In this document: positions 749 through 14,673 of the stretch, piece after piece | How the letters are laid out: every line of letters starts with the position of its first letter | Numbering within the stretch: position 1 is the first letter of the stretch | NCBI RefSeq assembly: GCF_900104795.1 | Contig: NZ_FNTG01000005.1 | Location: 62,001-126,000, forward strand | DNA: 64,000 nt | Source: Burkholderia sp. WP9 | GTDB lineage: Bacteria > Pseudomonadota > Gammaproteobacteria > Burkholderiales > Burkholderiaceae | Direction of reading: 5' to 3' | Made by a program: the position numbers and the translations under genes | The notes under the pieces: generated by a model | The model's input: only the letters and a program-made list of their open reading frames with translations | The model's database searches: none | Told to the model about the DNA's origin: nothing

Positions 749-2059
749 GTGCGCATCGTTCCGCTGATCGACCGACGAACGCTGCAGCGTGCCCATCGGC
801 TGTGGCTCCATTACGGTGTGTTCTGGCTGGGCGCGATCGCGGTCGGCCTTGTCGCGGTGCTCTACGCGAAGCTGATCGATTTCGGCTACGCGCTGTTTCT
901 GCGCCTTGCGGCTGAGCACTTCTGGTTACCGCTCGTCGCAGCACCCGTCTTAGGCGCCGTGACGGTGTGGCTCACGCGGCGTTTCTTCGATGGCGCGGAA
1001 GGCAGCGGCATTCCGCAGGTGATCGCCATGCTGCATGGACCTGACACACTGGGTCCGCGGCTGCTCACGCTGCGCATCCTCGTCGGCAAGATCTTCGTTT
1101 CGTTTCTTGCCATTCTCGGTGGCTTTACGATTGGACGTGAAGGGCCGACCATTCACGTCGGCGCGGCCCTGATGTTCAGCCTGAGGCACTTCTACCCGCA
1201 ACGCTTTCGCACAATCCGGCCCGGCGTGCTCGAACGAAGGCTCGCGCTTGCGGGCGCAGCCGCAGGACTGTCGGCTGCATTCAATGCGCCGCTCGCGGGG
1301 GTGGTGTTCGCGATCGAGGAGCTCACGCGCAGCTTCGAGCAGCGCACGAGCGGCGTCCTGATCACCGCCATCATTTTTGCCGGCATCGTTTCGCTGGGTA
1401 TTCAGGGAAACTATGTTTACTTCGGCACGATCGAGATTGGCTCGGGACTGCCCAATTGGCTCAGCCTCGCCGTCGTGCTGATCGGCGTAATCGCCGGTGT
1501 ACTGGGGGGCTGCTTCTGCTGGCTCCTGCTGAATACGAGGCGCTGGATGCCCACGGCATTGCTCGAGCTTCGCGGGCGGCGGCCCGTGCTCTTCGGTGCG
1601 CTATGCGGTCTGATCATCGCGGTCGTCGGCGTGCTCGCGCACGGGCACACGTTCGGCAGCGGATATGCCGAGGCGCGCAGCATGCTGGAGGGTAGCGCGC
1701 ATGTAAGCGCTGCGTATCCGCTGCTGAAGATCGTTTCGATGGTGGGTTCGTACTTGCCTGGGGCACCTGGCGGGCTGTTCGCGCCGTCGCTCGCGATCGG
1801 TGCGGGTATCGGCAATACGCTGCATATGGTGTTTTCGCAGATGCAGCTTTCGATGCTGATCGCGCTGGGCATGGTCGGCTACCTCGCGGCGGTCACGCAG
1901 AGTCCAATCACGGCATTCGTGATCGTCATCGAAATGATCAACGGGCATGCGCTCGTCATCTCGTTGATGGCCACCGCGCTGATCTCGAGCCGCGTCTCGC
2001 GGATCTTTGCGCCGCCGCTTTACGAGGCACTCTCGGAGCGCTATCTGCGCGAACCATAA
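749..2059 (+). CDS. ClC-family chloride channel/transporter (ClcB-like)
   Basis: A 436-residue integral membrane protein of the voltage-gated chloride channel family, moving chloride (probably against protons) across the inner membrane. The three ClC signatures are present: GSGIP at residues 85-89, GREGP at 129-133 including the gating glutamate, and GGLFAPS near residue 340. The FAIEEL stretch near 190 keeps the internal acidic pair seen in Cl-/H+ exchangers. The length matches ClcB-type proteins without a CBS domain. The start is GTG with a purine-rich AGAGGA about 8 bases upstream (735-740). Exchanger rather than channel activity is inferred from family knowledge. Confidence 0.9.
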   Translation: MRIVPLIDRRTLQRAHRLWLHYGVFWLGAIAVGLVAVLYAKLIDFGYALFLRLAAEHFWLPLVAAPVLGAVTVWLTRRFFDGAEGSGIPQVIAMLHGPDTLGPRLLTLRILVGKIFVSFLAILGGFTIGREGPTIHVGAALMFSLRHFYPQRFRTIRPGVLERRLALAGAAAGLSAAFNAPLAGVVFAIEELTRSFEQRTSGVLITAIIFAGIVSLGIQGNYVYFGTIEIGSGLPNWLSLAVVLIGVIAGVLGGCFCWLLLNTRRWMPTALLELRGRRPVLFGALCGLIIAVVGVLAHGHTFGSGYAEARSMLEGSAHVSAAYPLLKIVSMVGSYLPGAPGGLFAPSLAIGAGIGNTLHMVFSQMQLSMLIALGMVGYLAAVTQSPITAFVIVIEMINGHALVISLMATALISSRVSRIFAPPLYEALSERYLREP

Positions 2060-2725
2060 GCGGAATCGTCGGTTGCACCCCTTAGCGCGAGAAGCGGAGA
2101 GGAACCCATCTCTAAGATTTTCGAATTCAAGGCCCGCGAGTCTGCTCAGCGCGAGCGATGCCTAGATCCGTCCAGTTTACGATCAAGTGGACAAGGTGCT
2201 GGCTTGCGAACTTTGTGCGCTGATGACCGATGGTATCCGGTAAGCGGCCGATGTGAGGGCATTGGTTCCGATGGCCGCAGAGGGTCGGCAAGAGCCGGAT
2301 GTCCCGCGGATGCCCAGGACGCTTGATTTTCGCAATGCAGCATGTATGGCGAACGTCAACCGCTGAATTCGAATACCTCTAGACCTACGGTCCTCCCCCC
2401 GGACGCTCCACGTCGGCCTGCGCGCGCTACGCACGCTTCGATCCAGCCCGCAGAGAGGACGGACGGAACCGAAACCGTTCGACAAGACTTCTACGGGGCG
2501 GGATCTAGGGCTGAGCCGGCCTGAGGCCGCGGAATCCCCAAGGTGCGCGATAAAAGATTTACGCGCGTGTCCGCAGCACACCCGTAATCAACGCGGTCGC
2601 GTGCTCGCCTGATTGCCCTGCAAACGTTATTGCTCACCAGGGCTTCAGACAGTCTGCAGAACAGGAAATAATCCGGCATCGCCGAAATATCAAGCGGTAT
2701 TGGATATTTCTACGCCGAAGACAGC
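2060..2725. other. Gene-poor stretch between the ClC gene and the transfer module
   Basis: About 670 bases without a convincing gene. Small open frames occur on both strands (for example 2183-2581 on the minus strand), but they have no start context, no recognisable motif and biased composition. It separates ordinary chromosomal-type genes from the conjugation module and may be the edge of an insertion, but no repeat or tRNA was seen. Confidence 0.5.
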
Positions 2726-2759
2726 AATAAAAAAGCCCGCACCTGATTAAGTGCGGGCT
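2726..2759 (-). terminator. Rho-independent terminator of the relaxase gene
   Basis: A perfect 9-bp stem (AGCCCGCAC at 2734-2742 with GTGCGGGCT at 2751-2759) and an 8-base loop. On the minus strand it is followed by a U-rich tract (complement of the A-run at 2729-2734). It lies about 107 bases past the relaxase stop. Confidence 0.85.
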
Positions 2760-2865
2760 ATAAAACAACGTCATTCCGAGGCGGCGAAGGGGCATCGCCC
2801 AAACATGGGGCTGGGTTCAGATCAATTGGTTCATTCAACGTTGGCCGATTATCCAGACAACCAGA

Positions 2866-5709
2866 TTAATCACCGATTTCTGGCCCGCCACGTCCGCGCG
2901 ATGCCGTGCGCTCATGCGGTGGCTTATCTCGCCCGACCGCCTGGCCAGCCGCTTCGCGCAGTTGAGCCTTGAACTCGTTGCGCCGTTCCTGACGTTCTTC
3001 TGGCGTCAGGTCGGCGAAACGCCGGGATGCGGTGGCTGGCGTCGGCGATTGCGGGTGTCCGGCAGCTGCCGCGTCGATGCCGGCGCGTTGCGCCCGGGCC
3101 TGCGCTACTTCGTTGACAAGCGCTGCCGCCCGCTCGGCGCCGCTGAGTTCAACGAGCGCGCGCCAGGCGCGGTCATCCCGCTCAACTACATACCGGATCT
3201 CGCGACGCATCGCCGGATCGAGCCGGTCCAGTCCGACGCCCGCCCGCCTGAGGGCCGCGCGGTCCTTTGCGGGCACCGGCTTGCCTGCCCGGTTTGCGGC
3301 CGCCGCAGCGGAGAGGGCATCGGCATACTGCTCGACTGTACGATCGAGGGTCTTTTCGGCCCGTTGCGGCCGGGGTGCATTCGAGAAGTCGACACGGCGC
3401 CGGTTCAGCGTGTGCCGGTAGCCCAGTTCCGGCCGGCGATCACGCTCCGGCTGCAGCTCATGTTGCGCGCTGAACGATTTTTCGTCGGCACGCGACAGGC
3501 TGCGCATCAGCGCTGCGCCGTCCGCGAACTCGTCCCGGCCGGCCGCCATAATCAGATTTTCCCTGTGCCGGGTCATCGCGACGTAGGCTAGCTCGGCATG
3601 CATGCTCTTCGTCGCCAGCACATATGCGCGATCGACTGTCACACCCTGGCTCTTGTGGACCGTGAGCGCGTAGCCGTGATCGAAGTGGCCGTACTGCGCC
3701 GTATCGACCGCGAGCTGTCGGCCATCATCGAGCCGCACGTGCAGGACGGCGCCGGGCGCTTTCCTGTCAGGCATTTCGATCTGTTCGACCGTGCCCAGCG
3801 TCCCGTTCTTGACCTGCATCACGTATTCGTTCTGCAGGAACATGATCCGCTCGCCGGCGGCGATCGCGATGTGTCGGTTCTCGGTCCGCACGGTCTGTTC
3901 GGCGCCCAGTTCGCCGGCAGCCCGCCGCAATTCGCGCACGCGCGCATTCAGCGCGCAGCGCTCTTCGTTGGTGTGAGTCAGTAGCAGCTGGGTCTTGCCG
4001 GGACTGGCCCGGCGATCATCCTGCCACTGCGCAATCAGCCGTTCGCGCGCGTTGGCGACGGTCGAATACAGTTGTACGCCACCGCGCTCCGCATACGCGG
4101 ACACGGCGGTTGGTACATCGTGCCGGGCCAGCGCCGACGTTGCGTCGCGCTGCCAGGCCTCGTCCTGCCGCCTGATCTCGGTCAGGCTTTCGAGCCGGTT
4201 TGAGGCCGCCGCCTCACGCGACACGGCGCGGAAAGCATCGCCAGCGGCGACCGCATGCAGCTGCCACGCATCGCCCACCAGGCGTACGCGCGCCCCGGCC
4301 ACCTGCGCATGGTCGAGCAGTTTTTCCATCTGCCGCGATCCAACCATTCCGGCCTCGTCGATTACCAGAACCGTTTTCGCGTCCAGGGTTTCCGCACCGC
4401 GCTCGATGCCCGAAAGCAGACTGTGCAGCGTCCGGCTCGCGATGCCGGCGTCGCGCTGCATGTCGTCGGCCGTCTTGCCCTGCAGGGCCGCGCCCATCAC
4501 GCGCAGTCCGTCCGCCTCGAGCGCTTCGCGTGCTGCGGCGAGCACATAGCTTTTGCCGGTACCCGCAGCACCATTCACGACCACCAGCTGGCCGCCGCCC
4601 GCGAGCGCGACAAAAGCCGCATCCTGTCCCGCATTGAACTTCCGGGTTGCGCGTAGCATTTCGCGCACCGCGGCGTCTCCAGTTGCAGCGTCGCCGGCGC
4701 GACCCATTGAGCGAGCACGATCGACCAGGCGCACCTCAATCGCACGCAGATCCGCCGACGTGAACCATTCGCCATTGCGACCGGAATCCTTCAGCGCGAG
4801 AAGTTCCTTCGAATTCATCAGCCGCGCGTACACCTGCCGGAACTGTTCGGCACCGTCGGTATTGCGAAAGACGAACTGCTCGACGTCGCGACGTGAGAAG
4901 GTGGATTGATTGATCGTCAGCGCGGCGACACCGATCGCCGGATTGATGAGCAGCCGCTGCCCATTGCGGTACGCGCGCTGGCGATTCTCTTCGAGCAATC
5001 CGGCCATCACGCCACGCTCGCCCGCGTAGCGCGCGACGCCCACTTTCACGGACGGCTCCAGGTCGATACCCAGCGTCCGGTAGCTGCGATGGTCGATGCG
5101 AGCCTCGATGCCGGCCCGTGCCATGAAGTGATTGGCCGTGACGGCCCATTCTTCCCGCACATCACGGACGAACTGCCGGCTGCTCAGATAGCGGTCTTTT
5201 CCGGCACCGCCTTTTTCCGGTTCCTGCGCATTCCTGCGCCTGAAATATTGCCCTGGATCGCGTGCGATGCCGTCGTTCACCCGTTCGGTGAACATGATGT
5301 GCGCGTGCGGCTGTTCCAGCCCGTCACTTGCGGCCGGATTGTGGATCGCCCAGGTGTACGCGTGCCGCTGGCCGAGCGTGTGTTCAACGAACTCGCGCAC
5401 GAGCGCGACGCGCTGTTCATCGTCCAGTTCGCGCGGAATCGAAACCTCGATCTCCGTGTACGGCCGCCCGTTTGCACGCTCGTAGGTGTCCGCTGCCTGC
5501 CAGAAAATGCTCGCGTCGTGTGCGGCCCACGCTGGCATGTTGCCGCTCTCGGTCATCTTCAGGTCGCCGCGTTCCTCGTACTTTCCACCGCGAGAAATGT
5601 AGGCGTAGTGATCCTCCCGCGCAATGTACTTGGCGTGTTCCCCTGCGGCAGCCTTCCGGCCTGCTTTCACGCTCAGATGGTACGTTGGCATTGGCGGTCG
5701 GGCTTTCAT
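2866..5709 (-). CDS. traA: Conjugative relaxase/helicase, MobQ (TraA-type)
   Basis: A 947-residue two-domain relaxase that would nick oriT, stay bound to the transferred strand and unwind it. The N-terminal MobA/MobL domain (about residues 1-215) begins with PTYHLSVK and carries the metal-binding HAHIMF motif at 135-140. A RecD-like superfamily I helicase follows, with Walker A AAGTGKS near 381-387, a VLVIDEAGMVGS Walker B region and, further on, TVHKSQG and AYVAMTRHRE. The architecture matches Ti-plasmid TraA. A second ATG six codons in (5691) is an alternative start. A divergent TraD-like gene and an RSF1010-like oriT candidate lie directly upstream, and a terminator lies downstream. It appears intact. 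Confidence 0.92.
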   Translation of the reverse strand: MKARPPMPTYHLSVKAGRKAAAGEHAKYIAREDHYAYISRGGKYEERGDLKMTESGNMPAWAAHDASIFWQAADTYERANGRPYTEIEVSIPRELDDEQRVALVREFVEHTLGQRHAYTWAIHNPAASDGLEQPHAHIMFTERVNDGIARDPGQYFRRRNAQEPEKGGAGKDRYLSSRQFVRDVREEWAVTANHFMARAGIEARIDHRSYRTLGIDLEPSVKVGVARYAGERGVMAGLLEENRQRAYRNGQRLLINPAIGVAALTINQSTFSRRDVEQFVFRNTDGAEQFRQVYARLMNSKELLALKDSGRNGEWFTSADLRAIEVRLVDRARSMGRAGDAATGDAAVREMLRATRKFNAGQDAAFVALAGGGQLVVVNGAAGTGKSYVLAAAREALEADGLRVMGAALQGKTADDMQRDAGIASRTLHSLLSGIERGAETLDAKTVLVIDEAGMVGSRQMEKLLDHAQVAGARVRLVGDAWQLHAVAAGDAFRAVSREAAASNRLESLTEIRRQDEAWQRDATSALARHDVPTAVSAYAERGGVQLYSTVANARERLIAQWQDDRRASPGKTQLLLTHTNEERCALNARVRELRRAAGELGAEQTVRTENRHIAIAAGERIMFLQNEYVMQVKNGTLGTVEQIEMPDRKAPGAVLHVRLDDGRQLAVDTAQYGHFDHGYALTVHKSQGVTVDRAYVLATKSMHAELAYVAMTRHRENLIMAAGRDEFADGAALMRSLSRADEKSFSAQHELQPERDRRPELGYRHTLNRRRVDFSNAPRPQRAEKTLDRTVEQYADALSAAAAANRAGKPVPAKDRAALRRAGVGLDRLDPAMRREIRYVVERDDRAWRALVELSGAERAAALVNEVAQARAQRAGIDAAAAGHPQSPTPATASRRFADLTPEERQERRNEFKAQLREAAGQAVGRDKPPHERTASRGRGGPEIGD

Positions 5710-5722
5710 CTTATCATAAGCT

Positions 5723-5760
5723 GTTTCTATGCTAGCATAGAAACGCGGAAGCGCGCCCTG
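5723..5760. other. oriT: Candidate oriT of RSF1010/R1162 (MobQ) type
   Basis: A perfect 22-bp palindrome (arms GTTTCTATGCT, 5723-5744) is followed directly by GCGGAAGCGCGCCCTG (5745-5760). The remembered R1162/RSF1010 oriT has the same plan: an inverted repeat with GTTTCT...AGAAAC arms, then CGGTAAATGCGCCCT containing the nick. Both the arm sequence and the GCGCCCT core match. It sits between the divergent relaxase and TraD-like genes, where oriT is usually found. The nick position is inferred by analogy only. The palindrome could also serve as an operator for the relaxase gene. Confidence 0.75.
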
Positions 5761-5910
5761 ACTCGCTTTGCTCGCCAGATACTGCCGGGTCGCGCCTCCC
5801 TACTAGCTCGCTTTTGTGATTTTCATAATCCGGAATGGCTTGCAGGAAAGGGGCTGAATGGTCGGTCTGCGCTGTCGCTCGATGCAACGTGAATTTGATC
5901 CAGGAGAAAA

Positions 5911-6396
5911 ATGATGGCAAAGGCCGAATGGCTCACGGAACACGTCCAGTACATCAAGGGTTTGAAGTCGCCCACCGCCACCCAATCGTTGCTGGTCGAA
6001 CTGGCCGCGATTCCGAATCCGACCGCGCAGGAGTCCCGCCAGTTAGACAAGCTGGTCAGGCTTGAAAAGATTAACCAGAAGGCCGACGCGATGAAGGCCG
6101 AAGCGGCCCGCATGCTGAGCGCGCGGCGCGAGGATCAACGCAAGGCCCGTACGCGCGAACTGATCGAACTCGGCGGCATCGTCTCGATGGTTGATTTTCC
6201 GGTGGATCGCGGCACGCTGACCGGTGCGCTGCTATGGGCGCTCGATCAGTTCAGGACGGACGACGATTTGCAGCACACGCTCAAGAAACGTGGTGATGCT
6301 TTCATCGCTGAGCGCGAAAATGAGAAAAAGGTGGAGTCGCAGGCCAGCGCGGAGGTAGCTGCTAAAGCGGCTGCGGAGGAGAAAGTCCCCGCATAA
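5911..6396 (+). CDS. TraD-like conjugal transfer accessory protein
   Basis: A 161-residue, charged, largely helical protein. The middle segment RKARTRELIELGGIVSMVDF followed by TLTGALLWAL resembles the small TraD family (PF06412) found divergently beside TraA relaxases, thought to help relaxosome assembly at oriT. It is unrelated to the large F-plasmid TraD coupling protein. The last 40 residues are rich in Ala, Glu and Lys and probably form a coiled coil. AGGAG at 5902-5906 precedes two tandem ATGs (5911 and 5914). The oriT candidate lies 150 bases upstream. Confidence 0.8.
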   Translation: MMAKAEWLTEHVQYIKGLKSPTATQSLLVELAAIPNPTAQESRQLDKLVRLEKINQKADAMKAEAARMLSARREDQRKARTRELIELGGIVSMVDFPVDRGTLTGALLWALDQFRTDDDLQHTLKKRGDAFIAERENEKKVESQASAEVAAKAAAEEKVPA

Positions 6397-6496
6397 CACA
6401 CTGTGCCCAGCCGGATCGCCCCTCGCTGCGCTCCGGGTCGGCGCTCTCCCCGCACCTGTGGGCGCGGCGAGGTCCTTGTCGATGCGTGCGGCTCGC

Positions 6497-6520
6497 TCCG
6501 GGCGCGCAGGCGCGCGCGAT
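6497..6520 (+). repeat. 24-bp GC-rich repeat, copy 1
   Basis: A 24-base sequence beginning TCCGGGCGCGCAGG and ending in GCGAT, in the 280-base gap downstream of the TraD-like gene. The same 24 bases occur inverted at 10671-10694, so the two copies bracket the ParB/KlcA/small-gene block. Confidence 0.7.
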
Positions 6521-6552
6521 ATGGCAGCGGTCTGCGTGGCTTCGGGCTTGCT

Positions 6553-6587
6553 GAAAAAGAAAAAGCGCGTCGTGGGGAACGACGCGC
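6553..6587 (-). terminator. Terminator of the ParB-like gene
   Basis: A perfect 9-bp stem GCGCGTCGT (6565-6573) with ACGACGCGC (6579-6587) and a 5-base loop. On the minus strand a U-rich tract follows (complement of the A-rich 6553-6564). It lies about 90 bases past the ParB-like stop. Confidence 0.8.
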
Positions 6588-6676
6588 CGCAGGCATAGAA
6601 AGGGATTCTGGAAAACGGGCCGGGGATCGGTCAGCGCCCCGGAACAGCTTCGTTCGGGGCGCTGTACTCGGCTCGC

Positions 6677-8662
6677 TTAGGCGGCTTCTTCCTCCTCCTT
6701 GTCTTCGTCGTCATCCCATACGACCGGCGTTTCCCGGCTCACCAGCACCTCGGGCAACCAGCGTGCATCGGCCAGCAACCGTTCTGCCGTCTCTGCCGCT
6801 GCGTCTTTCTTCAATTTCTCCAGTGGTGCCGCCGCTTCGGGGGAGAGCGCTTGCGCTACCACGTCAACGATACGTGCTTTCGAAACGTGGTTCAGATAGC
6901 TCGTTCGCGTCGGCGTCCAGTACTGCGTCATATCGACGTTCAGCAGATTCATCAACACGTTCACCGGGTGTGCGCCATCCGATTCGCTTACGCCGTTGAC
7001 GGTCGCGGCCACGCAGAAGGCAAACAGGTTGCTCAGCACGTCTTCGCTCTGCGTCATGAGCCAGGGCAGCACATCACTGAAACGCTTCGGCAGCAGCGCG
7101 GCCCACTTTTCGCGCTCGGCCGAAATCTCTTTCCATGCCGCGCTGGCTTCCATGTCGTCCGCTGTCTGCAACAGGCGGTTGTGTGAGCACGTGGCCCGCA
7201 CGTCGGCGGCATGCTGGTCGTAGACGCAGACATAGCGGTCATCGAACACAACCGGGATCAGGCGGTGCATCAATACCGCCAGTGCGGCTACCGGGTTCCG
7301 TGCAAGTTCGATCTGGACGGCGGCGGTGCGGTGTGCCGTCAATCGCTTGCTGAGGTCTTTACCGTGCAGCGGCTTTTCTGCTGGCGCTGGCAGTTCGTCA
7401 GCACCCGTCACACCTTCGCGATTCACGCTGGCCCGGTCCTCGGGTTTGACCAGTCCGCGCTCGATCGCGGCCTTGCCGTCATGGTCGAGGGTCACGAACG
7501 CGCCGGCCCGTGCCTTCTGGTCGTCGCTCCAGATTTCGAGACGTTCCGCGAAGTCATCCAGCGCTTGGGAAGCTGCGTTGGCTGCGACTTCCAGTGCGTC
7601 GCGGCGGGCGTCGTCGCCGGATTCGTCCTCGGCGTCGTAGTACGCGTTCAGTTCCGCTGCAGCCTGTTCGCTCGCTTTCGTCAGCGCGCGAAGCTCGGTC
7701 TTTTCCTTCTTCGTGTACTCGCGCGACCCCGACGGCAATCGGCCAAAGCGGGCCATTTCGGAAAAGTCACGGCGCACACGTGTTTCGACCCAACTCCAGC
7801 CGTCAGCGCTCAAGGCCTGCGCGAGACAAACCAGCTTTTCCGCGACCAGACGATGCAGCAGTTCGGCATCGGTCACATACCCGGCGTTGTGCTCGTCGCT
7901 GAACAGGTCGCCGCGAACGTGGCCGCCTGCCACCTCATACGCGTCGAGCGTGACGAATGCAACCAGGTTGCTGTCGGCCACATCGATCTCGCTGTCCGTG
8001 ATCGCGTCGCGCAGCTGCGCGGGATTGCGTTGCCACGCCTGGGCGGCGTTAAACCACAGGCGTTCCTGCAATTCGTGGTCGTCCGTTAGCGCAAGCGTGC
8101 GGATCTGTTCCAGCGTCATGCCGTCATCGCGGAAGACGTCGATCAGGCGGGGCGACACGTTCGCAAGCTTCAGGTGTCGTTGCACCTGAATTTCCGACAG
8201 CGAGAACAACGCGGCAATGAAGGTCACCGTGCGGCCTTCATTGACCAGCAGGCGGAATGCCTCGCAGGCGTCCGCCGGGTGCATCGGCTCATGCTGGTTT
8301 TCGATCAGCGATACGGCGACGGCATCGGCCTCGCTCACGATCTTGACTGGGACAGGGTAGCTGTCATCGATCCGGCCAGTCGTGCGCAGTAGTTCCAGTG
8401 CGAGCAGGCGGCGCTGCCCCGCGCATACGCCCAGCTTGCGCTGTTTGCCACGCGATTTCATTTCATGGGTGACGAGGTTTTGCATGACGCCTGCCGCAGC
8501 GATGTTCCCGGCCAGTGTCTCGATGCCGGTAGGCGCTTTGCGGCGCACGTTGTGCGGTGACTTGCACAGCAGTGCGAGCGGGACGTATTCGATCTGGGTG
8601 TCGTTGCCGAAACTGCCTTCGGGAACGGTTTCGGTTGTACGGTTTTCAACGATTTGATCCAC
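6677..8662 (-). CDS. Large ParB/RepB/Spo0J-family plasmid protein
   Basis: A 661-residue protein with a ParB N-terminal nuclease-like fold: residues about 25-120 include NVRRKAP, then LGVCAGQRRLLAL and SLIENQHEPMHPADACEAF. A KorB/ParB helix-turn-helix follows around 140-190 (FSLSEIQVQRHLKLANVSPRL). A long Ala/Glu-rich region and a conserved C-terminal half come after, ending in a very acidic tail (WDDDEDKEEEE). It is about twice the size of a classical ParB and belongs to the long plasmid/ICE-borne group, whose role (partition, regulation or other) is unsettled. No ParA partner is visible. GTG start; leader, RBS and even the GTG are identical to those of the divergent KlcA gene. Confidence 0.85.
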   Translation of the reverse strand: MDQIVENRTTETVPEGSFGNDTQIEYVPLALLCKSPHNVRRKAPTGIETLAGNIAAAGVMQNLVTHEMKSRGKQRKLGVCAGQRRLLALELLRTTGRIDDSYPVPVKIVSEADAVAVSLIENQHEPMHPADACEAFRLLVNEGRTVTFIAALFSLSEIQVQRHLKLANVSPRLIDVFRDDGMTLEQIRTLALTDDHELQERLWFNAAQAWQRNPAQLRDAITDSEIDVADSNLVAFVTLDAYEVAGGHVRGDLFSDEHNAGYVTDAELLHRLVAEKLVCLAQALSADGWSWVETRVRRDFSEMARFGRLPSGSREYTKKEKTELRALTKASEQAAAELNAYYDAEDESGDDARRDALEVAANAASQALDDFAERLEIWSDDQKARAGAFVTLDHDGKAAIERGLVKPEDRASVNREGVTGADELPAPAEKPLHGKDLSKRLTAHRTAAVQIELARNPVAALAVLMHRLIPVVFDDRYVCVYDQHAADVRATCSHNRLLQTADDMEASAAWKEISAEREKWAALLPKRFSDVLPWLMTQSEDVLSNLFAFCVAATVNGVSESDGAHPVNVLMNLLNVDMTQYWTPTRTSYLNHVSKARIVDVVAQALSPEAAAPLEKLKKDAAAETAERLLADARWLPEVLVSRETPVVWDDDEDKEEEEAA

Positions 8663-8702
8663 GGTTATCTCCGGTTATGGCCATCGCACCACGCGAGGCA
8701 CA
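8660..8702 (+). repeat. 43-bp inverted repeat, left arm (ParB-like leader)
   Basis: Perfect inverted copy of 8844-8886. It covers the GTG start codon, the GGAG ribosome binding site and the whole leader up to the promoter of the ParB-like gene. Confidence 0.95.
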
Positions 8703-8843
8703 TAACCATTATAAGGACATAATGACCTAAGTAAAGAATTTATCGATGGGCGTCATTTGAAATTATTAATTGAATAATAAAACTGATTTAAATTGAAAAT
8801 CAAAATATCCTATTGTTAGGACAAAATGTCACTATAATTGAGT
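8703..8843. promoter_or_regulatory. AT-rich divergent promoter region with paired operator-like motifs
   Basis: 141 AT-rich bases between the two 43-bp arms. Leftward promoter: TATAAT (complement of 8708-8713) and TTTACT (complement of 8730-8735), spacer 16. Rightward promoter: TATAAT at 8833-8838 with a weak -35 near 8811-8816. Each spacer holds the same near-palindromic motif, GGACATAATGACC at 8715-8727 and GGACAAAATGTC at 8819-8830, placed where a bound repressor would block polymerase. A second inverted element, TCCTA...TAGGA, overlaps the rightward copy. Confidence 0.75.
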
Positions 8844-8886
8844 TGTGCCTCGCGTGGTGCGATGGCCATAACCGGAGATAACCGTG
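8844..8886 (-). repeat. 43-bp inverted repeat, right arm (KlcA leader)
   Basis: Perfect inverted copy of 8660-8702, ending on the GTG start codon of the antirestriction gene and including its ribosome binding site. Confidence 0.95.
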
Positions 8887-9297
8887 ATTGATAATGAAAC
8901 CAGAATCTCGTCAAACGTTGTTGTTGATGAGTTGCGCCTGAAGTTCCTTCCTCACTACCTGGGCACGCAATACCTCCAGGGCGAGGCGTTGGTGTACGAC
9001 TGGGCCTCGCGCCTTTCGAGTGCCTACAACGGCGGTTCGTGGGACTTCTTCCAGTTGTCGAATGGCGGCTTTTATATGGCCCCCTCGAACTGCGGACGGG
9101 TGCACGTGCGGTGGCATATGAACGGCTACAGCGACATGATGGGCGCGGACGCGTTTGGGATCGTCGTCACGCTGTTCGCCCTGTGCCACCTGGCGGAAAA
9201 GTGTGGCGATGACAGAATCATTGACCACTACCACTCCCTGCGTGCCTTTGCGACGCAGCACGTAGAGGCAGCGAACATCCTCCGCGCTATCGATTAA
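8884..9297 (+). CDS. klcA: Antirestriction protein, ArdB/KlcA family
   Basis: A 137-residue soluble protein of the ArdB/KlcA family (PF03230), which protects incoming plasmid DNA from type I restriction in the new host. The family core is clear: RLKFLPHYLG, then YNGGSWDFFQLSNGGFYMAP at about residues 48-68, then FGIVVTLFALCHLAE. Length is normal. The GTG start and leader are duplicated from the divergent ParB-like gene, so both should be expressed and repressed together. A terminator-like hairpin follows the stop within 5 bases. Confidence 0.92.
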   Translation: MIDNETRISSNVVVDELRLKFLPHYLGTQYLQGEALVYDWASRLSSAYNGGSWDFFQLSNGGFYMAPSNCGRVHVRWHMNGYSDMMGADAFGIVVTLFALCHLAEKCGDDRIIDHYHSLRAFATQHVEAANILRAID

Positions 9298-9301
9298 TCA
9301 A

Positions 9302-9330
9302 CCAGCCCCGGCCTGAGGGCTGGGGCCTTT
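9302..9330 (+). terminator. Terminator or attenuator after klcA
   Basis: Stem CCAGCCC (9302-9308) with GGGCTGG (9317-9323), followed by GGCCTTT. The short U-run suggests partial termination before the next small genes. Confidence 0.6.
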
Positions 9331-9359
9331 CGCCCTACCTGAAAATCAGTGAGGAAGAA

Positions 9360-9680
9360 ATGGACCTGACGCAAATTCGCCCAACCTGGCTGACCGCACT
9401 TCTGCCTTTGCTGGCCGTCTACCAGTACGGGGACCGTGAAATCGTGCGTGCTGAACTGTTCCGTATGGCGCTGTCGGCGGATGCTGCGGCGAAGACCGCC
9501 GAGGCGCTGCACCGCATCGCCAACATGCTCGACCGGGACGGTCATGCGATCGACATGCACCGCGAAGAGCTTCGCGCGATCGCGCGTGCCGCGCTTTCGG
9601 AGTTTGACCGCGTACCACCCCGCGCGCCGCTGGTCGCGGTCCACGAAGCGGTCCGCCACACTCGCGAGCGTGCCGCATGA
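9360..9680 (+). CDS. Small hypothetical protein
   Basis: A 106-residue, mostly helical acidic protein (LLPLLAVYQYGDREIVRAELFRMALSAD...), starting at an ATG preceded by GAGGAAG. No known domain recognised. It is the first of four tightly packed small genes after klcA; its stop overlaps the next start by four bases (ATGA), so translation is probably coupled. The position next to an antirestriction gene fits a plasmid accessory or anti-defence role, which is inference from context only. Confidence 0.65.
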   Translation: MDLTQIRPTWLTALLPLLAVYQYGDREIVRAELFRMALSADAAAKTAEALHRIANMLDRDGHAIDMHREELRAIARAALSEFDRVPPRAPLVAVHEAVRHTRERAA

Positions 9681-9871
9681 CGCCAGAACTGAAACGGGGT
9701 TGCGAACTGAAACGCGGCGACGTGCTGCGCACATGGTTCGGCAATCAGACGATTCTTGAAATGCTGCCGTACAGCGGCCCGTTCGACTTCATCTGCGGTG
9801 TGGCAAAGTTGCCGGATGCCGAAATGTCGATCGACCGGGGCGGACTCTACGAAGTGCTGTTCGCCCGCTAA
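9677..9871 (+). CDS. Small hypothetical protein
   Basis: A 64-residue protein with a repeated opening (LKRGCELKRGDVLRTW) and a beta-rich look (TILEMLPYSGPFDFICGVAKL). It starts inside the stop of the upstream gene (ATGA overlap). No family recognised. The short beta-barrel-like pattern could suit a small binding protein, but nothing decides this. Confidence 0.55.
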   Translation: MTPELKRGCELKRGDVLRTWFGNQTILEMLPYSGPFDFICGVAKLPDAEMSIDRGGLYEVLFAR

Positions 9872-9886
9872 CCTGAACCCTGAACC

Positions 9887-9913
9887 GCCCGCGTGTACAC
9901 GCGCGGGCTTCGG
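9887..9913 (+). terminator. Hairpin between small genes
   Basis: GCCCGCG (9887-9893) pairs with CGCGGGC (9902-9908), followed by TTCGG. It is terminator-like but has a poor U-tract, so it may only attenuate or stabilise mRNA. Confidence 0.45.
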
Positions 9914-9921
9914 AGCCTGCC

Positions 9922-10146
9922 ATGCCAACCTTTACAATTGCCGAGATTGAAAAGGCGATCAACGTGTGGCGAAACCGCCAGGCGTCTGGAGAAGACGCGG
10001 CGCTGTGCCCGAAAGCGCGTCACCTTGCCGATATCTATGGCGGGATGATCTACACACACGCAACGGCCATCGACGTGTCTTCGCTGTCTGCCGAGCAGGT
10101 GGAAGCTGTGACCACCGCCCTTTATCAACAGGAATTGCCACTATGA
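9922..10146 (+). CDS. DUF3717 family small protein
   Basis: A 74-residue protein with the pattern of DUF3717: ITIAEIEKAINVWRNRQ-type opening, LCPKARHLADIYGGMI in the middle, and a helical C-terminus. The family is common on Burkholderia replicons and plasmids, with unknown function. It ends in an ATGA overlap with the next gene. Confidence 0.7.
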   Translation: MPTFTIAEIEKAINVWRNRQASGEDAALCPKARHLADIYGGMIYTHATAIDVSSLSAEQVEAVTTALYQQELPL

Positions 10147-10553
10147 CCGACGAATCGAAGTTTTCCCCCGAAATGCTCGAACAGTTTCGGCGCGAGCAGG
10201 AGGAAAGCGACGCGCACTTTACTGTCGCGGCCGGACGGTTTTTTGACGCATGGAAACAGGCTGCCATGCTGGCCGGTCCAGTCTATTTCGGCGATGGCAC
10301 CAGAGAGGCTGTTGAGAACGCGAAAGACAAGTGGGCGCTCGCGCCCAATGGGGCGGTCATTCTCGACGCCTTCGGTGTTCTCAGCAGCGGCGAGCGCACT
10401 TTCCTTGCCGCGCTGTATTCGTTCTACAACTCGGACGATAGCGTTCTTCTGTGGGAGAAAGCAGGCATCAGGGGCTTCGCCGACCTGTCGGGGCTGGACC
10501 TTGTTCGTCGCAAGCTGATCGCGGAGCTTTTGCTGAACTACGTTGGTTGGTAG
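10143..10553 (+). CDS. Hypothetical protein of the small-gene cluster
   Basis: A 136-residue protein starting at the ATG that overlaps the DUF3717 stop. The frame is open further upstream, but the overlap makes 10143 the natural start. It contains FDAWKQAAMLAGPVYFGD and GVLSSGERTFLAALYSFYNSDD, a pattern of conserved helices, and no known domain. It is the last gene of the cluster before the IS1111-type element. Confidence 0.6.
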   Translation: MTDESKFSPEMLEQFRREQEESDAHFTVAAGRFFDAWKQAAMLAGPVYFGDGTREAVENAKDKWALAPNGAVILDAFGVLSSGERTFLAALYSFYNSDDSVLLWEKAGIRGFADLSGLDLVRRKLIAELLLNYVGW

Positions 10554-10670
10554 CGGGCAGGTATGTCGGTGTCCGAGGCTGACAGGCTCCGGCCCGCCAG
10601 TCCGATCGCAGACACGGGTGCCGGGTAACCCCCTTCCTGCTAAACCAGGACTCGTGTTGACCGGGAGCGC

Positions 10671-10694
10671 ATCGCGCGCGCCTGCGCGCCCGGA
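10671..10694 (-). repeat. 24-bp GC-rich repeat, copy 2 (inverted)
   Basis: Reverse complement of 6497-6520, lying 18 bases outside the left subterminal repeat of the IS1111-type element. Confidence 0.7.
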
Positions 10695-10790
10695 TCGAGG
10701 CGAACGAATTGATAAGGACCTCCCTCACGCGAGCGCTGGGATATGCCACGATGGTGGCGCAGGTCCGATCAATCGAGCAAGGAGAACGTC

Positions 10791-11867
10791 GTGAACAGGA
10801 TTGTCCGTATAGGCGTTGATCTGGCGAAGAACGTCATGCAGCTTCATGGTGTCGATGTAGCGGAGCGCGTGGTGATCAGGAAGGCAGTCACGCGGGAGAA
10901 GTTTCTTGAGTGGTTTGCGAATCTGGAGCCTTGCCTGGTCGCGATGGAGGCCTGTACAGCTTCGCATTTCTGGGCGCGCCGGCTTCGCGAATACGGACAT
11001 GATGTAAGGCTCATTCCGCCGCAGTTTGCGGCGCCCTATCGCAAGGGCGGCAGCTCTGTCAAAAATGATGCACTTGACGCTGAGGCGATCTGCGAAGCAG
11101 CAAGCCGGCCGCATATGCGTTACGTTCCGATCAAGACGCCAGCCCAGCAAGGCGCGCTCGTGTTGCATCGGATGCGCCAGGGTTTGATTGAGGAGCGTAC
11201 TGCACTGGTCAACCGGCTTCGCGGCCTGGTTGCTGAATTCGGGATATTTCTTCCGCAGGGCATTCACCGATTCAGGGAGAGGTTCGCCGAATCAGTGGAG
11301 GACGGGGGGAACGAATTGCCCGGACTCACGCGGGTGGCATTGTTGCGAGGGTGGACGCGAATTGTCGAGCTTGACGCAGAGATCGACTGGTTCGACAAAC
11401 AGGTCGCCCAGCATGCAAAGAATGATCCCAACGCGAGACGCGTCACGGAAATGTTCGGTGTCGGGTTGATCACTGCTTCCGCCGCGAGTGCCACGGTAGG
11501 GGATGGCCGCCAGTTCCGCAACGGCCGACAATTCGCTTCATGGCTCGGGCTTGTTCCAAAGCAGAACAGTAGTGGCGGCAAGGAGCGGCTCGGTCGCATC
11601 ACCAAGCAGGGCGATGCGTATCTGCGCACGCTGCTGTTCCAGTGCGCGCGGGTCACGCTGACGGCAGCCCGACGCAGACAGGACCGACTGGCGCAATGGG
11701 TTACCCAGCTAGTTGAACGCGTCGGCTACGGCAAGGCGCTGATTGCGATCGCCAACAAGCACGCACGTGTGCTCTGGGCAATCCTGGCGAAAGGTCAGCG
11801 ATTTGATCCCGCACACGACGGGCGCTCCGCGGGATTGCAGCGCAATGAAGCACCGATAGCATCGTAA
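10791..11867 (+). CDS. IS110-family transposase (DEDD recombinase)
   Basis: A 358-residue transposase. The N-terminal RuvC-like DEDD domain shows GVDLAKNVMQLH (first Asp), MEAC (Glu) and KNDALDAEAI (two Asp). The C-terminal Transposase_20 region includes FGVGLITASA, FASWLGLVPKQNSSGGKERLG and ITKQGDAYLRTLL, holding the conserved serine region. GTG start with AAGGAGA 5-6 bases upstream. It appears intact. In this family a non-coding bridge (seek) RNA directs target choice; the likely RNA region follows the gene. Confidence 0.93.
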   Translation: MNRIVRIGVDLAKNVMQLHGVDVAERVVIRKAVTREKFLEWFANLEPCLVAMEACTASHFWARRLREYGHDVRLIPPQFAAPYRKGGSSVKNDALDAEAICEAASRPHMRYVPIKTPAQQGALVLHRMRQGLIEERTALVNRLRGLVAEFGIFLPQGIHRFRERFAESVEDGGNELPGLTRVALLRGWTRIVELDAEIDWFDKQVAQHAKNDPNARRVTEMFGVGLITASAASATVGDGRQFRNGRQFASWLGLVPKQNSSGGKERLGRITKQGDAYLRTLLFQCARVTLTAARRRQDRLAQWVTQLVERVGYGKALIAIANKHARVLWAILAKGQRFDPAHDGRSAGLQRNEAPIAS

Positions 11868-12154
11868 GTTGAAGCAGGTCATGTTGTACTTCATCGCAGA
11901 CACCCGGTAAGGATAAGCGACAGGTCAGACCGGCAGCAGGAGAACTCGACGGGTCCCCAGGCAATGCGATCTCGCATGTGCCGACGCACGAATGGAGTCC
12001 CGCTGCGCGGTTATTATCCGGGCCACGGTCAGCAACGCTGACATCGAGAGGCCGATTGTAGGTGTGCAGTCTGCCAGCCGCTGCGTACCGCGTCGCGATG
12101 AGTAACAGATGACGAAGGAGTACAACTTAAAAGGATATAACCCTTGGTTTCAAC
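11868..12154 (+). ncRNA. Candidate bridge/seek RNA region of the IS1111-type element
   Basis: 287 non-coding bases between the transposase stop and the right subterminal repeat. In IS1111-group elements the guide RNA is known to lie downstream of the transposase. Local self-complementary stretches exist (for example GCGATCTCGC near 11966), but a fold was not computed. The call rests on position and family. Confidence 0.4.
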
Positions 12155-12362
12155 GGGAGGTCCTTATAGGGGACCCGCGCCGGGAGGCGTGGGGAGAGCG
12201 CCGGCCCGCAGCGGCAGCGGAGGGACGATCCGGTGAGGCGCCGTGCAACTGTGGCCGGGGTCGTCAAGCAGCCGCAGGCGGCGTGTTTCCACCGCGGCGA
12301 AGCCGTGGGGGCCGGATCGAGGACAGAGGCACCAATGAATCGTTCAGGATCAGGAGGACACC

Positions 12363-12902
12363 ATGTTTCGAGTGCAGATCTGGGATGACGACGCGAACCG
12401 CTACGTCGATGTGGTGCTCAGCTTTGACCAGTGGGGGGCGGTCGGCTACAGGCACGCGCAGCTTGGCGATCCGCCGGCGGAATACGACGATCCAGGGAAG
12501 GCATGGCGCGATGCAGTTGACCTGCAGGAACGATTCGGCGACGCGATCGTTACGCTGCTCGACACGTCGACGGGAGAGCGACACTTTGATGAGCGCAACC
12601 TGCCGGAGGTGGGCGCTGATGCCAGCGAAGCTTCGGCGGCCCCCGAAATCTGGACGGACGACTGGATCATCCAGCGTGCCGTGCGTATGCGGGCAGTGAG
12701 TGCTGGCGGCGACGTGTACGAACCATGGCCGGGGTACACGCACCCGATGACTCGCGATCAGGCAGTCAAGGCGCTCGAGGAGTGCGAAGAGCGGTGGCCG
12801 GAACATGAGTTCCGCGCGCATCGATTACGGCTGGAGGAAAAGGTCGCTGCGGACGCGATCGACCGGGCGCGAAGATCCGTCCGATCCAGGAAGTACGACT
12901 AA
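12363..12902 (+). CDS. Hypothetical plasmid-type protein
   Basis: A 179-residue acidic protein. The N-terminal half is beta-rich (MFRVQIWDDDANRYVDVVLSF...). Around residues 105-160 are AVRMRAVSAGGDVYEPWPGY and MTRDQAVKALEECEERWPEHEFRAH. No known family recognised. AGGAGGA precedes the ATG at good spacing. It lies just beyond the IS1111-type element and 19 bases before a putative DNA-binding protein, so the two may form an operon that was originally continuous with the klcA cluster. Confidence 0.6.
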   Translation: MFRVQIWDDDANRYVDVVLSFDQWGAVGYRHAQLGDPPAEYDDPGKAWRDAVDLQERFGDAIVTLLDTSTGERHFDERNLPEVGADASEASAAPEIWTDDWIIQRAVRMRAVSAGGDVYEPWPGYTHPMTRDQAVKALEECEERWPEHEFRAHRLRLEEKVAADAIDRARRSVRSRKYD

Positions 12903-12921
12903 GAGAAAAGGCGATAGAAAA

Positions 12922-13239
12922 ATGACGGTTGATATTCATACACCCATTCGGGCAGAGTGTTTGCTTCCGGCGGATGAGGGATGGGAGCGGCCTCGGGGCG
13001 CTGAAGTTCAGGAGGTGGTGCGACGCATCGGCCTGTCGGGCCGGGCTCTTGCCAGGGTGCTCGGGCTGAGTGAGCATGGCGGCCGCCAGGTCAGACGTTG
13101 GATAAGCGGAGAAACGCCCGTCCCGTATATAGCGTGGGCAATTCTCTGTGATATGGCGGGCCTGGGCACAATCTGGCGTGGCAAAACCCTTGAATTGGGG
13201 TTGAGTGGTATGGCTGAATCAGCGCCCGATGACGAATGA
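12922..13239 (+). CDS. Putative helix-turn-helix protein
   Basis: A 105-residue protein with GAEVQEVVRRIGLSGRALARVLGLSEHGGRQVRRWISGE at about residues 27-66. This reads as an XRE/bacteriophage-type helix-turn-helix (alternating hydrophobics, GLS turn, RRW recognition end) followed by a short helical tail (PYIAWAILCDMAGL). It is probably a small regulator of the accessory module. ATG start close to the preceding stop; the RBS is weak. Confidence 0.6.
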   Translation: MTVDIHTPIRAECLLPADEGWERPRGAEVQEVVRRIGLSGRALARVLGLSEHGGRQVRRWISGETPVPYIAWAILCDMAGLGTIWRGKTLELGLSGMAESAPDDE

Positions 13240-13695
13240 CCCGGCGCTACGTTTTGCTGTCAGCATGTTGCGCGATAAAACGAAACGCCCGCGCACCGAG
13301 GCCCGTCGGCTGAATGTTCGGGGTACATTTCGAGGCTGGCCATATCGCGCCCCCAAGACAGGCCAAATCGCTCGGCAACGCGACGACATCGAGGATATTC
13401 CCGGTCATCGCTCAACAAGAGATCGCCGATTGCGCAGTGGCTTATGTCGATTGGCCTTGCGTGAATCTATCAGCGGTCAATGTGAGAGCAGAAAGCCTAA
13501 AAGACAGCACGTTGTGTGAGTGCGAGAAGTCGGCGCCGGGTGATGATCTCGGTATTCGGCAACGGAGATATTGAATCGGTGATAATTCAACTCTTGGGGA
13601 AGATGAGTCCACCGACAGTGCTTGGCTCGGCATGCTGAAACGTGTTCGCCGTGGATCGCAGTTCGACGGAATTAAGGTCCCTGCCGATGCGCTCA
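13240..13695. other. Gene-poor junction between transfer module and respiration island
   Basis: About 455 bases with no supported gene. A frame open from 13577 to 13731 encodes STLGEDESTDSAWLGML then KVPADALIRVWKLIATIA, but it lacks a start codon after its upstream stop and is probably a fragment. Confidence 0.45.
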
Positions 13696-13932
13696 TCAGG
13701 GTGTGGAAGCTGATCGCAACCATTGCTTGAACTCAAGATACGCGAGGATAAAGCGAGATCGATAGGGTTCGGAATGCGCGAAATGCCGATTCGAAAGCAC
13801 TGCGCTTCGATAGATCTTCACCGTGGTGTGAACCCATTCGACAGTTGCCGGTAATCCGTCACGCGCGATGAGAAACTCGATACGTGAACGTTCTTCGATT
13901 GGTTCATCTCGTGATGCACGTTGAATTGCCAC
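13696..13932 (-). CDS. Small conserved hypothetical protein
   Basis: A 78-residue basic protein starting at GTG (MAIQRASRDEPIEERSRIEF...). The core EWVHTTVKIYRSAVL...HFAHSEPYRSRFILAYLEFKQWL has a conserved helical, Arg/Tyr-rich look that I associate with small Burkholderia proteins of unknown function. No catalytic motif. It lies 32 bases downstream of the broken sdhB copy on the same strand. Confidence 0.5.
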   Translation of the reverse strand: MAIQRASRDEPIEERSRIEFLIARDGLPATVEWVHTTVKIYRSAVLSNRHFAHSEPYRSRFILAYLEFKQWLRSASTP

Positions 13933-13964
13933 CCCAGCCTTCCTGTACGATCACAATGCATCAA

Positions 13965-14673
13965 TCAGATAATTCTGCGTGCAAGCATGGTGCGGATCTC
14001 CCCGATTGCTTTTGCCGGATTCAGTCCTTTGGGGCAAACGTCCGTGCAGTTCAGGATCGTGCGACATCGGAATAGACGGTACGGGTCATCGAGATTATCC
14101 AGCCGTGCGGCGGTTCCTTCGTCGCGGGAATCAACCAGAAAGCGATAAGCCTGTAGCAAGCCCGCTGGCCCGACGTATTTATCCGGGTTCCACCAATACG
14201 AAGGACACGCGCTCGAGCAACATGCGCACAGGATGCATTCATAGAGGCCGTCGAGTTGATCACGTTCCTCCGGCGACTGGAGCCGCTCTCGCTCGGGGGG
14301 CGGGGTATGGTTGATCAGGTACGGCGTGATCGAATGGTACTGCATTGAAAAATGCAGTCATATCGACGATCAGATCGCGTACGATTGGTAAACCGGGTAA
14401 CGGTCGCAACACCGTGTGGCTGGGTAGATCGTTGAGATTGGTCGTGCAGGCGAGACCGTTCTTGCCATTGATGTTCATCGCGTCAGAGCCGCATACCCCC
14501 TCGCGACAGGAGCGCCGGAAGCTGAGCGTCTCGTCCTGCGCTTTGAGGCGAATTAGTACATCCAGTAGCATCCGGTCATTCACCGTCCTTTCTATCTTGA
14601 AGACCTGCGAATGAGGCGTGGCATCCTTGTCTGGATCGTATCGGTAGATCTCGAATGTTCTTGCACCACTCAT
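13965..14673 (-). pseudogene. sdhB: Frameshifted succinate dehydrogenase iron-sulfur subunit (sdhB)
   Basis: Two overlapping frames together make one SdhB of about 235 residues. The N-terminal frame (from the ATG at 14673) has the 2Fe-2S motif CREGVCGSDAMNINGKNGLAC. The C-terminal frame has [26 protein letters not shown] and [18 protein letters not shown] for the 4Fe-4S and 3Fe-4S clusters. They meet at about 14345, where the minus strand reads TTTTTCAATGCAG; removing one base restores AFFMQYHSI. All cluster cysteines are intact, so decay is recent, or this is a sequencing indel. No sdhA, C or D is nearby. Confidence 0.85.

Follow-up and report, generated by a model that had tools for sequence, protein, structure and literature searches.

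We examined a pair of divergent genes in a 64,000-nucleotide stretch of Burkholderia sp. WP9 DNA (assembly GCF_900104795.1, contig NZ_FNTG01000005.1, positions 62,001 to 126,000; here, the window), which sits on a 200.9-kb contig of a 9.02-Mb genome. One gene encodes a ParB-like protein and the other, klcA, an antirestriction protein, and both are preceded by the same leader in inverted orientation. We consider it likely that the two leaders belong to KorC-type cassettes that lie divergently on a plasmid of the Paraburkholderia type and are part of an establishment regulon that is repressed by KorC and zygotically induced, with hairpins at the 5' ends of the mRNAs and with inverted copies homogenized by conversion or template switching. 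Both genes probably help the plasmid to settle in a new cell. All nine plasmid records with DNA similar to the locus came from Paraburkholderia (9/9).

Inverted leaders and promoters of the divergent genes

The two leader arms (8660-8702 and 8844-8886) each span approximately from the predicted message start to the GTG start codon and are identical at 43 of 43 positions; the coordinates, start codons, and ribosome sites that a first-pass annotation of this DNA had assigned to them were correct. They are the outer part of a longer inverted repeat of 88 nucleotides (nt) with 82% identity (8660-8747 and 8799-8886, 51 nt between). The 43-base match greatly exceeds what chance would give (rough, naive figure, 6e-21). 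With up to 3 mismatches allowed, the 31-mer core of the leader was found in the whole genome only at these two places, and a reversed control pattern gave 0 matches. The features of the gene pair are as follows.

6677-8662, minus strand: ParB-like gene, 661 amino acids (aa), full-length homologue of the F plasmid leading region ParB-like protein
8660-8702, minus strand: leader arm of the ParB-like gene, ending with the GTG start codon
8669-8674, minus strand: ribosome site CCGGAG of the ParB-like gene (sequence; conserved columns in alignment A1)
8680-8699, minus strand: predicted 5'-terminal mRNA hairpin of the ParB-like leader, GCC-TCGC, loop GTGGT, GCGA-T-GGC (fold and covariation in relatives)
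8708-8735, minus strand: promoter of the ParB-like gene, TTTACT-16-TATAAT, 10/12 matches (promoter scan)
8714-8728, minus strand: KorC-like dyad AGGTCATTATGTCCT in the ParB-like promoter, between -35 and -10
8811-8838, plus strand: promoter of klcA, weak -35, TATTGT-16-TATAAT, with TATAAT at 8833-8838 (read from the sequence)
8817-8830, plus strand: KorC-like dyad TAGGACAAAATGTC in the klcA promoter, outer part degenerate (read from the sequence)
8844-8886, plus strand: leader arm of klcA, ending with the GTG start codon
8847-8866, plus strand: predicted 5'-terminal mRNA hairpin of the klcA leader (fold, covariation, and a covariance-model match at 8832-8887)
8872-8877, plus strand: ribosome site CCGGAG of klcA (sequence; conserved columns in alignment A1)
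8884-9297, plus strand: klcA, antirestriction gene of the KlcA/ArdB family, 137 aa (PF03230, 125 bits)

The promoter scan missed the klcA-side promoter because its -35 is weak. As the annotation had observed, each promoter spacer contains the same motif, GGACATAATGAC at 8715-8726 and GGACAAAATGTC at 8819-8830, each between the -35 and -10 hexamers, and the GGACA motif is part of the KorC-like dyad. No Rho-independent terminator was found in 8600-8950, and the leader hairpin has no T-run.

The leader as a structured RNA element

Leaders of relatives were collected from plasmids and genomes, and they shared a common layout in which a stem begins 8 nt after the -10. The stem has about 4 + 4 bp, is usually bulged, and closes a loop of mostly 5 to 6 nt; a short spacer then leads to CCGGAG, or a sequence close to it, and to the start codon. 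The stem base, 8 nt after the -10, falls at about +2/+3 of the predicted message. A covariance model (R1) was built from alignment A2, a subset of A1 (21 of 46 rows), and the remaining rows were aligned through R1. At E ≤ 0.8, R1 retrieved 62 copies from 39 sources (alignment A5), among which the training copies match by construction. All 62 aligned copies were free of indels between the -10 and the stem, and 55 had at least 4 of 6 matches to the -10.

In A5, which was fitted to the model and for which the shuffle tests, like our permutation tests, ignore relatedness, 96.3% of the pair cells in the helix were standard, compared to at most 46.9% when the helix was slid. Cells changed on both sides numbered 56, compared to 15.4 in shuffled alignments (0/500), the covariation score was 0.320 versus 0.101 (0/500), and 5 pairs had a double change versus 2.6 (1/500). 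Because A5 was fitted to the structure, we checked the folding of the leaders separately. All 73 distinct leaders had a negative folding z score against dinucleotide shuffles (z < -1 in 72; mean, -2.5), while nine klcA leaders without the element had a mean of -0.74 (for these, the stretch was placed by distance from the start codon). The compensatory changes in the stem indicate that the hairpin is maintained by selection.

The RNA-level control that the first-pass annotation had suggested for the two genes is thereby given a candidate, a conserved and covarying hairpin leader that they share. Its further suggestion, antisense pairing of the two messages, was rejected because both leaders are the same sequence in sense and not complements. 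In klcA and ParB-like leaders, the ribosome site often seems to lie within a possible second, weak stem just before the start codon (CGGA paired with TCCG or TCTG); a crude test of 40 distinct tails, including a few from leaders without the element, gave a weak difference, with a mean stem of 3.15 versus 2.81 for shuffled sequences.

Two other identities for the leader were tried. A scan of 2000-14000 against Rfam at E ≤ 10 gave 8 matches and 0 at the gathering score; the best, MIR7533 (75.7 of 230 bits), covers the long inverted repeat on both strands (8659-8887) and was rejected because its score is far too low. A CsrA-type site was rejected by eye, as the loops are variable and without GGA.

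Occurrence of the leader

Within the Burkholderiaceae, the leader recurs before klcA, ParB-like, kleA, and DUF932 genes, and it is also present in IncP-1, IncU, and IncL plasmids. KlcA relatives were found in 24 of 299 sampled family genomes, at 28 loci (given L numbers here). At E ≤ 10, R1 matched at 19 of the 28, the window and some training copies included; at L031 and L035 the match was on the ParB-like side only, and none was found at nine klcA loci (L042, L044-L049, L052, and L053). Under strict filters, R1 matched in 13 of 299 family genomes at E ≤ 0.001. A second model, R2, matched in 35 of 144 genus genomes (E ≤ 0.01) and in 3 of 369 class genomes (E ≤ 0.001, one of them weak at 7e-4). 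All three counts include the source genome itself.

Among well-known plasmids, IncP-1 pBS228 had three copies, one before klcA (a training copy) and two before kleA-family genes. A Burkholderia contaminans plasmid carried a third copy before a DUF932 gene (L013:7075-7134). In RA3, which was not in the model, orf02 (E 0.004) and klcA (E 5e-6) were each preceded by a copy; control of both promoters, orf02p and klcAp, by KorC has been reported (PMC7783346 and PMC7414963). In pOXA-48, also not in the model, one copy (E 1.6e-8) lay just 5' of a gene pair that ends in a KorC-like gene, and a second match was weak (E 0.08); the sole KorC site predicted for this plasmid is reported to lie in the orf24-korC promoter (PMC12365149). 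The leader model gave no convincing match in F (E 0.97) and none in R46 or R388.

The RA3 orf02 and klcA leaders (L145; 2191-2249 and 2584-2638) are near-identical direct copies, each with a TAGGCC-N5-GGCCTA dyad on its 5' side. In addition, pOXA-48 (L146) has six promoter-plus-hairpin leaders that resemble one another (at 22250, 25731, 27034, 28321, 29296, and 30223), with TATAAT, a spacing of 7 to 8 nt (three measured), a CGAAAGGC stem, and a loop that varies; they are an unrelated sequence family with the same layout. They come from a loose pattern that found 10 places, of which 6 were counted as the repeated leader and 4 were set aside by eye. In R46, each of the four CUP leaders scanned also folds to give a hairpin 7 nt past the -10. 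Given these R46 and pOXA-48 hairpins, 7 to 8 nt after the -10, the layout may therefore be general.

A KorC homologue and its putative operators

Downstream of klcA, the window encodes a candidate repressor for the two promoters.

12922-13239, plus strand: korC homologue, helix-turn-helix (HTH) repressor, 105 aa (aligned in A4)

Its product was 56% identical to pBS228 KorC over 80 aa (E 2e-31 in a single comparison) and 42% identical over 79 aa to an HTH protein of pOXA-48 (L146:23583-23849), which we took to be the korC product of that plasmid. In alignment A4, the window regulator was compared with pBS228 KorC and six related-plasmid regulators (44 to 80% identity) and with ArdK (25%). It had no PF16509 match, whereas ArdK has one; these comparisons concern the window regulator and not the rest of the contig, which was not searched for ArdK.

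The window dyads resemble TAGGGCATAATGCCCTA at the IncP-1 klcA promoter; they are GC-flanked and lie between -35 and -10. Across 37 distinct leader pairs, identity in the 20 nt before the -10 was 0.608 within a plasmid, compared to a mean of 0.543 for permuted partners (0/20000 as high). Together, the KorC-like dyad in both promoters and the KorC homologue agree with the shared transcriptional control that had been proposed for the pair, and the homologue presumably represses both promoters.

Concerted evolution of the two arms

We compared the arms in 45 of 46 listed divergent-pair loci (37 distinct pairs), one locus, L135, being lost to the ribosome-site pattern. L028 was unlisted; L024, L029, L032, L033, L051, L114, L117, and L121 were left out as copies of listed places; and loci with one recognized arm (such as L012, L016, and L035) fell outside the comparison. 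Arm coordinates were set by hand or from weak matches for L010, L017 (-), L037 (-), L031 (+), and L030 (-). Mean leader identity was 0.858 within plasmids, compared to 0.668 for opposite arms and 0.667 for like arms between plasmids. None of 20000 permutations reached the observed value, a result that is not a probability because the loci are related. In a set of 26 pairs that was analyzed earlier and overlaps with this one, the values were 0.864 within versus 0.685. The covariation of arms within plasmids that the first-pass annotation had proposed as a check was thus observed, and it bears out the suggestion of conversion or selection behind the identity.

The annotation had also offered recent duplication. 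The perfect 43-bp identity would fit one promoter having been duplicated recently in inverted orientation and without lasting function; however, the same divergent layout occurs in 45 loci with 37 distinct leader pairs, and a ParB-like gene was found with klcA in 42 of the 45 (tblastn; 44 to 100% identical over the matched part of the first 330 residues). Recent duplication is not supported because the divergent pair is old, and we regard it as highly improbable.

Individual loci show how the arms behave. The KlcA of L006 is 90% identical to that of the window, but its leader is of another type and is 0.97 identical to the leader of its own ParB-like gene. L009 is the reverse of L006 (ParB-like, 85%; KlcA, 61%; arms, 1.00). 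The loop is ATGTA in both arms of L002 and GTGGT in both arms of L001, L003, L004, L022, and the window. In L022, from P. haematera, the klcA arm bears ParB-side bases up to the -10, giving perfect arms of 54 bp, an apparent conversion tract. By this comparison, leader type tracks the plasmid and not the gene. Could the likeness come from selection alone, acting on a regulatory RNA or protein contact common to both arms, without any conversion? Stem and ribosome site are indeed kept where the arms differ (L013, L015, L124, L125, and L127). However, loops vary between plasmids yet are identical within 20 of the 37 pairs, ParB-side sequence lies 5' of the klcA leader in L022, and the leader types of L006 and the window differ, each following its own ParB-like gene. 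We therefore consider selection without conversion quite unlikely.

Copies also agree outside the adjacent pair. In L013, the DUF932 leader is 0.94 identical to the klcA leader (inverted, 2.3 kb away) and 0.69 identical to the same-direction ParB-like leader, and the adjacent inverted pair is itself 0.69 identical. Seven same-direction comparisons, from four genomes or plasmids other than L013, gave 0.72 to 0.94. These values did not show that homogenization depends on inverted orientation. In the diverged pairs L013, L015, L030, and L031, the stems are quite different and still fold; because of this, the hairpin rather than arm identity looks essential, and the arms appear to be kept identical by copying from one to the other. 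Imperfect inverted repeats are reported to become more perfect through template switching between them (PMC7202029 and PMC8604942). The comparison indicates that the cassette drifts between related plasmids while its two copies stay alike in most of those examined.

Alternatively, the inverted pair may be a built-in single-strand promoter like Frpo, with selection for arm-arm pairing, not conversion, explaining the identity. The arms would pair in the incoming T-strand and rebuild a double-stranded promoter, so that one gene is made before the second strand exists. The predicted fold of the single strand (-72 kcal/mol; z, -15) places the two -10 boxes and the two leaders in arm-to-arm pairing, and at least 23 arm-arm pairs are predicted in 35 of the 37 distinct loci. 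Such promoters are used in leading regions (PMC11541004), and imperfect inverted repeats are described as acting in this way 5' of the ssb-parB2-psiB-psiA clusters of F and ColIb-P9 (PMC8406263). Because the single strand could fold into a hairpin that holds both promoters, a role of this kind is possible. On the other hand, arm-arm pairs number 0 in L010 and 2 in L031, IncP-1, RA3, and pOXA-48 have leaders that lack an inverted partner, and one strand can serve only one of two divergent genes; on balance we think this explanation of the identity unlikely.

Some related observations stand apart from these comparisons. A second klcA in the same genome (G000:C4:154996-155582; loci L050 and L086) is 73% identical to that of the window. 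It has a divergent partner leader, and the partner gene was not recognized as ParB-like; unlike in the window, its two leaders are 0.67 identical, and both differ from the window leaders while keeping the hairpin. At L027, GCG stands at about 2130-2135, where the ParB-like gene normally has its GTG start. Inversion of the core by recombination was also considered, and none was seen by eye in the close relatives L001-L004, L022, and L023.

Proposed working of the cassette pair

We return to the KorC-repressed, homogenized cassette pair as the reading we favor. Each cassette would begin with a sigma-70-type promoter that holds a KorC-like operator dyad between its -35 and -10, followed by a stem-loop at the 5' end of the message and the ribosome site CCGGAG. 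In an established cell, the KorC homologue of the plasmid would hold both promoters low; in a plasmid-free recipient, where KorC is absent, both genes would fire together, as zygotic induction in RP4 suggests. In RP4 transconjugants, klcA is reported to show the strongest induction of all genes (arrays in two matings with resistant recipients, 223.7- and 121-fold; quantitative reverse transcription-PCR, about 120-fold), which is attributed to relief from KorA and KorC, with kleA up 38- and 22-fold and kleC up 51- and 28-fold (PMC7314908). The pBS228 counterparts of kleA and kleC also bear the hairpin.

The 5'-terminal hairpin would most likely shield a short burst of message from decay that depends on the 5' end, and it may also hold the ribosome site open. 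Stem-loops at the 5' end can stabilize mRNA, as reported for ompA and papA (works cited in PMC3997798). Because the stem base lies at about +2/+3 and 5' stem-loops can have this effect, protection of the early message would be the simplest role for the hairpin. Since IncP-1, RA3, and pOXA-48 carry leaders with no inverted partner, the leader would not need one to function, although a role for a cruciform, which the annotation had raised, is possible. Identity between the arms would be maintained mainly by conversion, which the comparison of loci indicates, and the enzymatic route would probably be quasipalindrome template switching while the 88-nt inverted repeat is single stranded.

It is important to note that several results weigh against this picture. 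Inspection by eye found the dyad missing or doubtful in L010, L037, and L122 at least, and degenerate in one arm of several other loci, the klcA arm of the window among them. Leader identity is below 0.86 in 12 of the 37 pairs and the loop differs in 17 of 37, so that arm identity is not essential. The first-pass annotation had held that diverged arms with no retained motif would speak against it; a few relatives are of this kind, although their diverged leaders still fold. The like copies of RA3, which are direct repeats, and of L013, which lie 2.3 kb from each other, go beyond what a local hairpin switch alone would produce, and because they are near-identical, ordinary gene conversion or duplication must contribute. 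RA3 KorC is reported to control orf02prev, orf033p, and orf034p as well (PMC7414963), and in a scan of the whole of RA3 the model matched at orf02p and klcAp only, with none at these three; thus, not every KorC promoter comes with the hairpin. As for the hairpin itself, the further pair types in A5, an alignment fitted to the model, were not above shuffles (13 versus 11.6; 62/500), and transcription starts at the window promoters are predictions. The 43-nt leader of the window folds unremarkably alone (z, -0.93), and the case for the hairpin therefore rests on the comparison with relatives.

Going further, we tentatively raise a broader idea that we hold to be doubtful: that this is an undescribed RNA element, a 5'-terminal covarying hairpin, which serves as a mark of establishment genes on plasmids with KorC, from Burkholderiales to Enterobacterales; that unrelated plasmids (IncN with its CUP elements, and IncL) evolved the same layout, with the hairpin about 8 nt past the promoter, a copy before every establishment gene, and the copies homogenized within the plasmid; and that the divergent form folds into a ready-made single-strand promoter whose folding drives homogenization.

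Plasmids need antirestriction and establishment proteins within minutes of cell entry, and the burst that is known to follow repressor relief would gain an RNA layer from a shared hairpin leader. The leader model would also offer a way to find establishment genes of obscure function, since ParB-like, DUF932, kleA-family, and RA3 orf02 genes all lie behind the leader. Further, arms that evolve in concert would preserve, in nature, the traces of conversion between inverted repeats, and the pair in inverted orientation would be a simple test case for a double promoter on single-stranded DNA.

Neighboring genes

The gene pair adjoins a relaxase gene and a traD-family gene (5911-6396).

2866-5709, minus strand: relaxase/helicase gene, Ti-type TraA (TIGR02768, 596 bits; cutoff, 590)

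The transfer origin is presumed to lie near the 5' end of the relaxase gene. The ParB-like protein scored 21.9 bits for ParB_N, under the Pfam cutoff of 26.3, and was 32% identical to the F leading-region ParB-like protein over 643 aligned positions; KlcA was 50% identical to that of IncP-1 pBS228. The two proteins had been called unrelated, but functionally they are not, as both types are found in plasmid leading regions (F). ParB2 of the leading-region kind is reported to be translocated into recipients by the pED208 system (PMC8406263), and we infer that ParB2 of pED208 is of the same family as the window protein. An IS110-family transposase gene (10743-11867) lies between a DUF3717 gene and the korC-side genes, where it possibly separates korC from the klcA promoter; L002 likewise has an IS110 gene in the interval that matches the gap between DUF3717 and the korC side in the window.

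Comparison with known systems

KorC regulons and CUP elements are already known kinds of system. The hairpin leader was not described in the literature searched, though an earlier mention is possible. The KorC regulon of IncP-1 (RK2/RP4 and pBS228) and IncU (RA3) plasmids, acting at the klcA, kleA, and kleC promoters, is like the window in its KorC-family repressor, its dyad between -35 and -10, and its klcA target, and in our analysis it also had the same hairpin plus CCGGAG leader. It differs in that the window cassettes are inverted back to back, one of them drives a ParB-like gene, and the arms are homogenized; moreover, the KorA site of IncP-1 promoters was not seen by eye in the window promoters.

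The CUP elements of IncN plasmids (pKM101/R46, the ArdK regulon) resemble the window leaders as repeated promoter-plus-leader units before antirestriction genes, with hairpins in R46. However, ArdK, which is reported to bind CUP sequences (PMC6289460), is of the TrfB/KorA type (PF16509) and not KorC, CUP operons are unidirectional, and R2 had no match in R46 that would relate the leaders in sequence. An inversion in an IncN2 plasmid has been proposed to reflect recombination between two CUP copies (PMC5371602).

Stabilizing stem-loops also occur in chromosomal genes, papA and ompA of Escherichia coli, whereas the window leader is a plasmid element repeated before several genes; the likeness is a stem at the 5' end of the message. 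Finally, Frpo and ssi of F and ColIb-P9 are, like the window element, leading-region inverted repeats with promoter elements 5' of a ParB-like cluster (PMC8406263). The window differs in having a symmetrical, divergent double promoter with operators, whose single-stranded form is known here as a predicted fold.

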